A program made the position numbers and the translations under genes. A stretch of DNA of 64,000 bases from Agrobacterium tumefaciens (GTDB lineage Bacteria > Pseudomonadota > Alphaproteobacteria > Rhizobiales > Rhizobiaceae): assembly GCA_025559845.1 (NCBI GenBank), contig CP048470.1, positions 2,093,001-2,157,000 on the forward strand, written 5' to 3'. Positions within the stretch are counted from its first letter, which is position 1. Each line of letters starts with the position of its first letter. This document shows positions 4,136-12,608 of the stretch, one piece after another. The notes under the pieces are model-generated. The model was not told the origin of the DNA. It worked only from the letters and a program-made list of their open reading frames with translations, and ran no database searches.

Positions 4136-4407
4136 CTGTATCTCCGGTCGCTAATTGAGAAATATCTTATATTTAGATGGTTAATAAAGTGCTCGACGTT
4201 GCATTGGTCTTGTATTGCGCCCGCAATGCGTCATTGGGCGTAAGGAAATAGTCTTATGTTTTGTGGAGCTGAGTAAAAAACTATTAAAATTGCAAGTATT
4301 AGTGTTAATCGTTTATTGTAATATTAGGCGTTGCTTGAATTAGCGCTCTCTAAATATACAGTCAAATCACGCCAGACGGCGTTGATCAAACTCAAGAGGA
4401 GAGAGAA
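4136..4407. other. Divergent AT-rich promoter region
   Basis: 272 bases between the beta-barrel gene and the small secreted repeat protein. Very AT-rich around 4165-4190 and 4255-4330, fitting divergent promoters. An imperfect inverted repeat CGCCC...GGGCG frames AATGCGTCATT near 4217-4240. No recognised operator. Confidence 0.35.
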
Positions 4408-4692
4408 ATGATTGTTAAGTTTGCTTGTGTTGCTGCCGCTCTTACTGTCGCTTCCGTTGGCCAGGCCCAGGCCGGCGGCCTTCTGGGTGTTCTGTCCGGA
4501 AACAGCAACAAGAACAGTGCGCTCATCGTTGTGTCGCCGAGCATCGATCTCGGTGTGAACGGTATCCTGTCCAACAACGGGATTTTGAACGGCAACAAGA
4601 CCGGCATCCTCAATGGTGTCCTGAACGGCAACAAGACCTCCGTCGATGTCATTGACAACAAGGACAACGGCCGGAAGAAGAACCGCCACTAA
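4408..4692 (+). CDS. Small secreted Asn/Gly-rich repeat protein
   Basis: 94 residues. A clear signal peptide of about 22 residues ends AQA-GG. The mature protein of about 72 residues is rich in Asn, Gly, Ile and Leu and carries short tandem motifs: NGIL, then GILNGNKT, then the near-copy GVLNGNKT, followed by a charged tail (DNKDNGRKKNRH). AAGAGGAGAGAGAA precedes the ATG, so expression is likely. No cysteines and no known domain. The repeats suggest a structural or surface-assembling peptide, but that is inference. It is divergent from a beta-barrel gene, and its transcript would run into the structured segment starting 38 bases after its stop. Confidence 0.65.
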   Translation: MIVKFACVAAALTVASVGQAQAGGLLGVLSGNSNKNSALIVVSPSIDLGVNGILSNNGILNGNKTGILNGVLNGNKTSVDVIDNKDNGRKKNRH

Positions 4693-4730
4693 GAAGCGGT
4701 AAAACAACGAAAACTGAGGGAAGGCTGACG

Positions 4731-4975
4731 CCCCCTTGAGGGTGGTGACAAATTCCGGGTCGCTCCATAGGCCGCAGGAATGAACCCGCGCCCGTTCCCC
4801 CCCGTATTCTGCCGAGGGGCCAGCACGATCATGTCCCTGATCGCAATAACATTTTGGCCCGCGCAACCGCGCGGTTGCTGGATGCCGGATCAACCATGGG
4901 CCTGACCCGCGGACCGGTGTAAAGGGCAGGGCCTGTCCTGTCATCACTCTCAAGGGGGCTTCGGCCCCCTTCTTT
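4731..4975 (+). ncRNA. Candidate structured RNA / attenuator with 20-bp closing helix and terminator
   Basis: Bases 4731-4750 (CCCCCTTGAGGGTGGTGACA) pair with 4939-4958 (TGTCATCACTCTCAAGGGGG) over all 20 positions, two of them G-U. Inside lie further helices, including the perfect 16-base palindrome GCAACCGCGCGGTTGC at 4863-4878. The 3' strand of the closing helix overlaps a strong intrinsic terminator: AAGGGGGC-TTCG-GCCCCCTT (4952-4971) then CTTTCTTT. The closing helix and the terminator hairpin cannot form together. It could be a free RNA of about 245 nt, a regulated 3' UTR of the small secreted gene, or a leader controlling the transporter at 5105. It has no visible match to RNase P, tmRNA, SRP or 6S RNA core sequences. 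Confidence 0.6.
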
Positions 4976-5104
4976 CTTTGGGGGAGGCCTGCTCTTGCTG
5001 ATTGTCGAACGATGCCCGCAGGCTTGAATAATACATGATTATGATGTGAAGGTGCGTCATCACGCTGCAACCTTCAGTCGATTCCCATGAATGAGAGAAA
5101 GGTT

Positions 5105-6268
5105 ATGCCTGACGGCTTTGATCGTCAGGCCTACATGATTGCGTTGCTGGTCTTTGTTGCTGGCGGCACAAACGCGACTATCGTTCCTCTCATCGGTTTC
5201 TATATTATTCAGGTGCTCGGGCATCCTCCCGCGACAGTTGGTCTCTACAGCGTTGTGGCAATGATCGCGTCGATCGCCGCCAGCCGTTTTTACGGTGAGC
5301 GGGTGGATGCCGGTATCAGAATACGCCCGCTTCTACTTGTCTCCATTACCGGCGCGATGCTTGCGGCTGTTGCTGCGATCTTCGGGCACCTTTTGCTTCT
5401 TGTCGCTGTCACGGCGCCTTCTATGGGACTTGCCAATGCCGCGACGACGCTCGTGTTTAGCTATGGTCGCTATCACGGCCGGCTCAAAGCTCTTGATGCA
5501 GGCGCTTACAACGCCTTCTTGCGGATGATGGTGTCGCTGGCCTGGATGCTGTTTCCGGCCATCGCTTATCTGATCGTCGACGTTGCAGGTGCGAAAGCCG
5601 TGTTCATCAATGCCATCGTCATGGCGACGATCTGGGGCGGACTGGCGCTGGCGTTCATTCCACACGATCAGACCTGTCCAATGGACCGGCAAAACGATGC
5701 CGATGACGGCGGTGGCCGAAACATGCCGTTGCTTCTGGCTGCGGCGGCGAACTTGTGCATGTCCTTTGCCCATTCTCTTTGCGCTTCTGCCTTGCCAATC
5801 TTCCTGGTGCGCGAGGTCGGGCTCCCGGACTACGCGCCTGGCTTGTCTCTCAGTGTGAAGTGCGCGATGGAGGTTTTGCTTATTCTGCTGGCGCCAAGGA
5901 TCATGCGCTTGGTAAGCGTTCGCGTCATACTCGCTGGTGCCGGTGTCGTGGCAATCATTGCATTTAACGTCATTGCCTCAGTACAGACATTGCCGGCAAT
6001 GATATTTGGCGCGGCCATGGAGGGTGCCTATTACGGTCTTTTCGCAGGTACGTCTCTGACGTTCATTCAGGGATTTGCGCGTGGTCGAATGGCGCGGGCA
6101 ACGGCGCTCTATATGAACTCGATTTTTTTGGCAAGCCTTTTCGCAGTGCCCCTGATGGGGATCATTGCACAATATGCAAGCTTCGGCGTCGCAATCCGAC
6201 TTGCTTCTTTGGGCGCTGCTTCGGCTCTGCTCATGCTTTTCCTGACCAGACGTCAGACGAGCACCTAG
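5105..6268 (+). CDS. MFS transporter, sugar-efflux (Set)-like
   Basis: About 387 residues with twelve predicted membrane segments, beginning IALLVFVAGGTNATIVPLIGFYIIQVLG and ending SALLMLFL. The order of segments, a short cytosolic loop with charged residues after the sixth (HDQTCPMDRQNDADDGGG), and the FYGERVDAG loop after TM2 fit the major facilitator superfamily, most like the Set sugar-efflux group. Two in-frame starts exist: 5087 (no ribosome site) and 5105 (preceded by AGAAAGG); I prefer 5105. Substrate is unknown. The terminator at 4952-4971 lies about 130 bases upstream, so this gene needs its own promoter or is attenuated there. Confidence 0.75.
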   Translation: MPDGFDRQAYMIALLVFVAGGTNATIVPLIGFYIIQVLGHPPATVGLYSVVAMIASIAASRFYGERVDAGIRIRPLLLVSITGAMLAAVAAIFGHLLLLVAVTAPSMGLANAATTLVFSYGRYHGRLKALDAGAYNAFLRMMVSLAWMLFPAIAYLIVDVAGAKAVFINAIVMATIWGGLALAFIPHDQTCPMDRQNDADDGGGRNMPLLLAAAANLCMSFAHSLCASALPIFLVREVGLPDYAPGLSLSVKCAMEVLLILLAPRIMRLVSVRVILAGAGVVAIIAFNVIASVQTLPAMIFGAAMEGAYYGLFAGTSLTFIQGFARGRMARATALYMNSIFLASLFAVPLMGIIAQYASFGVAIRLASLGAASALLMLFLTRRQTST

Positions 6269-6367: not shown

Positions 6368-7378
6368 TTACGCCGAAATATCGATGACACCGCAGTCACC
6401 AGCTTCAGAGGCGAAGGAAAGAAGCTTGCCTGTGGCGCTCCAGTCCATCGAGGTGATCGCCCCCTTGCCTGGGCGACGAAGCAGCGCTTCCTTGCCGTCA
6501 GCAACACGTACGCCAAGGATCATGCCATCGATAAACCCGATGGCGAGCACTTCTTCCGCCGGGTGAAAGGCGACCGTGGTGACCATGATGTTGGCGCGCG
6601 TGCCGAGTTCCAGAGGTGCTTTGCCCATCGGACCGTCTTTGCCGGAAAAGGGCCAGACGATTGCGGCTGGCGCACCTGATGAGGCAAGCCACTTACCCTT
6701 TGGCGACCAGGACACCGATTTGACCTTTGAAGGGTAACCGGTCATGCGCATGTGGCGAGCTTCCATGCCGCCCTTGGTGGCTTCCATCTTCCAGCCATGC
6801 AGGGCATTTTCCTGCATAGTGGTGACGAGAAATTTTCCATCCGGAGAGAAAGTCACGCCGGTATGCGCACCCTTCCACTCGAGATCAACGGGGTCTCCTG
6901 CCGTTGCCACCCAGTGTAGTGTCACGCCATTATACCGAGCAACGGCAATGCGCATCCCCTTCGGGGCGAAGGCTATGGCTTCGACAGTGCGCTCTTCCTT
7001 GAATTCTTTGACCGTACCATCCGACAGACGTACGAAACTCGACTTTCCGACACCATATGCGACCGCTTTCTGGGGACCGCCAGCGATCACGCTGATCCAC
7101 TTGCGCGGAACATTTGCCAATTCACTGAGGGAACCGTCGTGGCCGATACGCAGAACGCGTCCATCTTCACCGCCTGAAAGCAGGGTGGCACTGTAGGGAT
7201 CGCGAATGCATGTCAGAAGACCCTGATGTGCCTCCGTAACCTTTTCGCCGCCATCCAACCGGTGGATGGTCCCTGCAGCGGTGGCGAAGAGAGGAATGTC
7301 GCCGAGAAAATGGGTCGAGACCACATGGCCTTCGATATCAAGCGGGGCAACAGTCGGCATCGATGATCGGTCTTTCAT
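6368..7378 (-). CDS. WD40 repeat protein, partner of CobW-type zinc GTPase
   Basis: 336 residues made of WD40 blades: HVVSTHFLGDIPLFATAAGTIHRL, LLTCIRDPYSATLLSGGEDGRVLRI, VEAIAFAPKGMRIAVARYNGVTLHW, VTFSPDGKFLVTTMQENALHGW, VKSVSWSPKGKWLASSGAPAAIVW, VTTVAFHPAEEVLAIGFIDGMI and ITSMDWSATGKLLSFASEAG. This makes a seven-bladed propeller, a protein-interaction scaffold, with no signal peptide. The start has GGAGG about 12 bases upstream; a second ATG six codons in is possible. It lies 208 bases downstream of the CobW-family gene on the same strand, an arrangement I know from several alphaproteobacteria, so a role in zinc homeostasis is likely but unproven. Confidence 0.8.
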   Translation of the reverse strand: MKDRSSMPTVAPLDIEGHVVSTHFLGDIPLFATAAGTIHRLDGGEKVTEAHQGLLTCIRDPYSATLLSGGEDGRVLRIGHDGSLSELANVPRKWISVIAGGPQKAVAYGVGKSSFVRLSDGTVKEFKEERTVEAIAFAPKGMRIAVARYNGVTLHWVATAGDPVDLEWKGAHTGVTFSPDGKFLVTTMQENALHGWKMEATKGGMEARHMRMTGYPSKVKSVSWSPKGKWLASSGAPAAIVWPFSGKDGPMGKAPLELGTRANIMVTTVAFHPAEEVLAIGFIDGMILGVRVADGKEALLRRPGKGAITSMDWSATGKLLSFASEAGDCGVIDISA

Positions 7379-12490: not shown

Positions 12491-12515
12491 GCACCCCGGC
12501 ATTGAGTCGGGGTGC
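12491..12515 (+). terminator. Hairpin after the 2-hydroxyacid dehydrogenase
   Basis: GCACCCCG / CGGGGTGC 8-bp stem with a 9-base loop, 20 bases after the stop. No T run, so termination efficiency is uncertain. Confidence 0.45.
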
Positions 12516-12608
12516 ATTGCAATCATGTGACCTTGAGCAGACGGGATGCTCTCACTTTACGCACGTGCCGTGAGACTGACGCTGGTTTGGCTTGCCAGTC
12601 GACTGAAA

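Follow-up and report, generated by a model that had tools for sequence, protein, structure and literature searches.

The interval at 4731-4975 of the window (the whole stretch of Agrobacterium tumefaciens DNA that was analysed, 64,000 nt) is best explained as belonging to the small secreted-protein gene at 4408-4692, as its 3' UTR and intrinsic terminator; part of the loop is a REP relic, and a helix closes the UTR. We give this reading a probability of about 0.65. The DNA itself shows the helix, a terminator sequence and a REP relic, and in relatives the UTR is separated from the MFS transporter gene that follows it in the window. Judged by sequence comparison, the window UTR is a species-specific 3' UTR with its terminator. 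The features are as follows.

4408..4692, + strand: small secreted-protein gene, 94 aa (27 homologous proteins at E <= 0.001; homologues also in Agrobacterium loci)
4716..4737, + strand: local hairpin GAGGG..GGC-UGAC-GCC-CCCUU, predicted to form before the 3' arm is made (prefix fold to 4938)
4730..4750, + strand: 5' arm of the 21-pair helix (inverted-repeat scan and folding), exact only in the source species
4816..4893 (envelope 4796-4913), + strand: decayed head-to-head dimer of CGTC-tagged REP (profile of 26 dimers)
4939..4959, + strand: 3' arm of the 21-pair helix (inverted-repeat scan and folding)
4952..4979, + strand: intrinsic terminator, UUCG hairpin at 4952-4971, then CTTTCTTT at 4972-4979 (terminator scan)
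5018..5054, + strand: conserved block CTTGAA ... TG.TG.GA ahead of the MFS gene (12 aligned upstream regions)
5087..6268, + strand: MFS transporter gene, the downstream neighbour (Pfam MFS_1, E 1.1e-14)

Long-range helix and terminator

The two arms form a helix of 21 pairs, 19 of them Watson-Crick and two G-U (4741/4948 and 4745/4944), around a 188-nt loop. The initial annotation had paired 4731-4750 with 4939-4958; all 20 positions pair as described, and G4730-C4959 adds one pair more. By length, the helix ranks first among the uninterrupted inverted repeats of the whole window (loop of at least 60 nt, span up to ~320 nt), the runner-up having 17 pairs (9 Watson-Crick). The longest inverted repeat in 15 dinucleotide shuffles of the window had 19 pairs (14 Watson-Crick), and shuffling the 394-nt intergenic region 2000 times gave 20 pairs once and never 21, in agreement with the claim that such a helix is very unlikely by chance. 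We also considered whether the left side arose from the entire terminator by copying and inversion; the 46-column alignment of the two beats 5000 shuffles but includes the arms, and the idea is unproven.

A 296-nt fold had z = -3.40, with equal stability in 1 of 200 shuffles. The UTR itself (~4693-4975) gave z = -5.16, compared with +0.29 for its first 252 nt, which end at 4944 and so contain no terminator and only a small part of the 3' arm (60 shuffles each); the excess stability therefore sits in the long helix and the terminator. A scan of the window against Rfam returned no match at the gathering cut-off, the best sub-threshold hit being STnc290, which scored 25.8 bits (E 0.036; cut-off 60) at 4918-4977, so the failure of the initial annotation to match the RNA to a known family is borne out at that cut-off.

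The terminator hairpin, AAGGGGGC-UUCG-GCCCCCUU, has eight pairs, six of them GC. It is followed by the T-rich tract CTTTCTTT, which runs just beyond 4975, the end first given for the interval, and which is broken by a C. A GC-rich UUCG hairpin with a T-rich tract behind a gene is what the intrinsic terminator of a long bacterial 3' UTR looks like; unlike in a plain 3'-UTR terminator, a 21-pair long-range helix here overlaps the 5' stem by 8 nt. Within 4140-5120, it is the sole terminator-like site on the + strand. Terminator-like sites in that region number seven altogether against a shuffle mean of 1.0, and a minus-strand terminator-like hairpin lies at 4735-4720 (-), within the left arm region and beside T-rich sequence.

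It had been claimed that the 3' arm doubles as the 5' arm of the terminator and that the two helices are mutually exclusive. A UUCG terminator does stand there and folding places it in conflict with the helix, but only 4952-4959 are shared, and the remaining 13 pairs of the helix are compatible with the terminator and can coexist with it; exclusion is thus partial. The competition itself is borne out by equilibrium folding, which favours the long helix by ~13-14 kcal/mol. The fold with the long helix reaches -136.2 kcal/mol, whereas forcing the terminator gives -121.9. Pair probabilities are 0.0 for the terminator and at least 0.99 for the long helix, except at the outermost-loop pair. With 4960-4979 held unpaired the long helix reaches only -116.8 kcal/mol, and hence wins only by pairing the 3' side of the terminator too. 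In prefix folds the long helix is present by 4951, and at five lengths ending at 4966-4980 the best structure with the terminator lies 12.8-14.3 kcal/mol above the minimum. This modelled preference weighs against simple, efficient termination, as a statement about equilibrium. In general, a local UUCG hairpin would be expected to form first. Given the equilibrium preference, the long helix might still interfere with termination.

Arm conservation and a REP relic inside the loop

At up to three mismatches, the arm pattern was found in 19 of the 39 genomes of the genus. Only two carry the inverted pair without mismatch, the source genome and one of the same species (G218); the hits in the remaining 17 have three mismatches each. 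One other allele of the UTR (the same in L039 and L068) differs from the window by two substitutions, a 3-nt indel and a 1-nt indel, none of them in the arms. In the comparison of the arms in relatives, proposed in the initial annotation as a check, the arms are unchanged in the second allele and exact in no other species of the genus. Each arm occurs once in its own genome, with no further copy, and so does not belong to a multi-copy element. A MITE would recur with identical inverted repeats at its ends; here the arms are single in the source genome and matched elsewhere only by three-mismatch hits, unlike a MITE.

Searching 199 genomes of the family with 4690-4985 gave matches in 26, including the source genome (E <= 0.01). 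These consist mostly of two pieces, ~4816-4893 and a generic terminator, with a few other short ones. A 23-nt exact match in one genome (G189, locus L020) is probably due to chance. The ~4816-4893 piece was found many times over in relatives, where each copy is a dimer in head-to-head arrangement, 113-150 bp long and bounded by variants of CCGTCAT ... ATGACGG, as read from 65 distinct sequences with both orientations counted. Di Nocera et al. 2013 (PMC3733652) describe A. tumefaciens dimers, assigned to CGTC-3, whose spacer holds two stem-loops. The relatives' copies share with the CGTC-REP dimers of that paper the CGTC tag, palindromic stem, CCA-like tail, head-to-head layout and two-stem-loop spacer. 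By eye, their unit has an 8-bp stem and a 5-nt loop, which fits the wording used there for family 2, as opposed to its CGTC-3 label for A. tumefaciens.

A profile of 26 such dimers, picked by a length of at most 120 bp and a single orientation, matched 4816-4893 at E = 1.2e-11 (40.6 bits, 79 of 115 profile positions), as expected of a homologue. The match spans model positions 23-101 only. Unlike intact CGTC-REP dimers, the window copy lacks the terminal CGTC tags, most of the left unit is unrecognisable and there are no two palindromic units; with these parts lost, it is a relic and not a working member. On the strength of the profile match, we take part of the long-helix loop to be a decayed CGTC-REP dimer. 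A second, weak profile match lies at 12492-12571 (+) of the window (E = 8.4e-4, 15.3 bits).

Of the 39 genus genomes, 29 contain the exact one-unit REP pattern, with a maximum of 44 occurrences in a single genome. Several relatives carry dozens of exact units, compared with none in the source genome and one in G204, which is likely to be C58. With up to three mismatches allowed per unit, the sole other CGTC-REP pair of the source genome lies at C1:1590778-1590891 (L111, L112).

The small gene, its 3' UTR and the MFS neighbour in relatives

The small gene ends at 4692 with its stop codon, 38 nt before 4731, exactly as first described. Its product belongs to no Pfam family, a plasmid search with the protein found nothing, and the label 'secreted' reflects a signal-like N-terminus judged by eye. 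A close homologue of the protein, labelled Agrobacterium tumefaciens, is 94% identical to it. Beyond the source species, a genus search retrieved the gene from 19 genomes at 83-86% DNA identity (L040-L058) and from nine at 67-73% (L059-L067). The named relatives comprise strains of Agrobacterium and of Rhizobium rhizogenes, together with Rhizobium sp. RM, which is 99% identical in the MFS gene.

The UTRs that follow the small gene in these relatives are unlike that of the window. A review (PMC7821165) describes orthologous genes of related species with unrelated 3' UTRs, and fast turnover of bacterial 3' UTRs; the orthologous small genes with their differing UTRs show the pattern described there. 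In L040-L058 the UTR contains a conserved structured segment, R1, closed by the helix CGATGCGC/GCGCATCG. A core model of R1 (99 positions) matched 19 of the 39 genus genomes once each, and in 297 family genomes it scored a strong hit in G190 and two further hits that were weak. The R1-region alignment (18 rows, L051 left out) has 41 predicted pairs including the terminator, six of them with two-sided changes. Trimmed before the terminator, the R1-bearing UTRs show z values between -1.11 and -4.34. R1 pairs are formed in 96.2% of cells, compared with 17-52% in slid controls. Five cells are changed on both sides, a value reached by none of 500 shuffles; pairs changed on both sides number two, which 214 of 500 shuffles reach. 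Taken together, these pairing tests lend moderate support to a conserved R1 structure. No Rfam family matched nine of the R1-bearing loci at the cut-off.

The window UTR is not a recognisable R1. Homology had been suspected from a shared CCGG..AACGAAGG motif and was rejected on both HMM and covariance-model searches. The R1 profile HMM found nothing below E = 0.33 in the window UTR, in the same UTR with the REP flanks joined or in L068, the matches being to the terminator; the covariance model, with hits allowed up to E = 10, matched none of 12 loci, nor did it match the source genome at E <= 0.01. R1 and the window helix are alike in following the orthologous gene and in closing a structured segment before a terminator with a long-range helix. 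They differ in that the closing helix of R1 (P1) has its end upstream of the terminator, with no overlap between the two. An identity of R1 with the C58 sRNA C2_1831446F (162 nt), which appears in PMC3738593, was likewise rejected, G204 having neither the small gene nor R1; this presumes that G204 is C58 or its twin, as its coordinates suggest, with TPP riboswitches at the places printed for C58.

The MFS gene starts at 5087, leaving 111 nt after 4975 and not the 130 nt first claimed. Orthologues at >=75% identity were found in 22 of the 39 genus genomes, a count that excludes a 36% match in G233; G204 is a genome with the MFS gene and neither the small gene nor R1. In all 12 aligned MFS upstream regions, the CTTGAA and TG.TG.GA block lies downstream of the terminator, and 5018-5054 is likely to be the MFS promoter or operator. 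A sigma-70 consensus scan called no promoter at 5018-5054, so this assignment comes from conservation; the consensus scan found no promoter-like + strand site anywhere in 4140-5120.

Among the 19 relatives with R1, the distance from R1 to the MFS gene is 1194-1322 nt in 13 and 136-211 nt in six. A gene of 215-223 aa, outer-membrane-like by eye and missing from the window, fills the gap between UTR and MFS gene in L070, L072 and L073, the three long-gap loci inspected. At all nine outgroup loci the small gene is present and flanks of ~1.5 kb contain a WD40 gene and no MFS homologue. In four loci (L060, L063, L064, L067), the WD40 gene (window 6368-7378) directly follows the small gene with no MFS gene between, so the MFS gene was gained or lost at this locus. 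A terminator also occupies the corresponding place after the small gene in relatives; together with the absence of the MFS gene from 9/9 outgroup loci, this indicates that the terminator belongs with the small gene. A 3'-UTR element, the reading we prefer, was among the options that the initial annotation offered.

Weighing the alternative readings

In the preferred reading, transcription from the small gene would run through the UTR and end at the UUCG hairpin and U-rich tract (4952-4979). A head-to-head CGTC-REP dimer would once have inserted in the UTR, leaving the part now in the loop as a relic. After release, the 21-pair helix would fold the UTR into one long duplex, which may shield the 3' end of the mRNA or be cut by a double-strand RNase, in a stabilising or processing role. 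Some observations sit less easily with this. Both differences between the arms keep pairing, as G-U, which selection could explain. The modelled victory of the long helix over the terminator at equilibrium, the interrupted U tract and the lack of a consensus promoter at the MFS block also count against it.

The arms and the relic might instead be a by-product at the DNA level, left by a mobile-element-like insertion or by an inverted duplication of the terminator region, with no role as RNA and the terminator working alone. The REP relic in the loop, the confinement of the arms to one species and the first 252 nt of the UTR, no stabler than shuffles, all fit such an origin, as does the local alignment of the left side with the inverted right side, which beats 5000 shuffles. 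The arms are single-copy in their genome, however, no target-site duplication was seen by eye, and beyond the 21-pair arms the similarity lacks significance, being equalled by 15171 of 20000 shuffles when unanchored and by 657 of 3000 when anchored; we regard this origin as unlikely. Quite unlikely, in our view, is a 3'-UTR-derived sRNA acting in trans, either released from the mRNA by cleavage or transcribed from a start of its own. The UTR is long and structured and ends in a terminator, relatives keep a structured UTR in the same place (R1, 19/39 genomes, 96.2% of cells paired), and 4918-4977 resembles, below threshold, the Hfq-binding sRNA STnc290. Yet the window UTR has no match to R1 and is not conserved beyond the species, and the consensus scan gave no promoter-like + strand site in 4140-5120 for an independent start.

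Were the long helix an attenuator or antiterminator, it would, with 4716-4729 pairing the 3' arm of the terminator, block termination and allow conditional read-through into the MFS gene, which lies on the same strand as the small gene. It shares with attenuators and riboswitches the alternative pairings of long helix and terminator; it differs from them in having no tied regulated gene, no conserved sensor domain and no Rfam match at the cut-off. The interval does not lie in an MFS leader downstream of a promoter, on comparative grounds, since the conserved MFS block comes after the terminator and 1194-1322 nt separate UTR and MFS gene in 13 of 19 relatives. Nor is a sensor domain conserved, with arms exact in 2/39 genomes of one species and a loop that is partly repeat relic. 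In relatives, moreover, P1 stops short of the terminator. The transporter-leader, attenuator or riboswitch interpretation is thus not supported, and read-through control is the least probable of the readings; it retains a small probability because folding models point that way, by ~13-14 kcal/mol. Hardly more credible is a broader version in which the small-gene 3' UTR is a lineage-specific regulatory site, kept as R1 in 19 relatives and replaced in the source species by a terminator-competing helix that sets termination or read-through into the transporter.

The preferred reading implies that a striking fold in a single genome can bring together, within a 3' UTR that changes fast, a terminator and the remains of a repeat, and that synteny and repeats should be checked ahead of a riboswitch claim. 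R1, with its 19 related genomes, is the better target for work on a 3'-UTR RNA. The better riboswitch candidate lies elsewhere in the window, at ~2285-2434, as a conserved structured leader upstream of a Glyoxalase_8 gene (2436-2879, +; Pfam PF20066). This leader has no Rfam match at the cut-off and no match that we found in the literature; its DNA was matched in five of 121 family genomes, including the source genome. Seven aligned loci share invariant GAGAG, GCCGTCCGC, TGGTGAA and GCATG...CATGC elements, and six of 32 predicted pairs show two-sided changes, making it a candidate riboswitch-like element.
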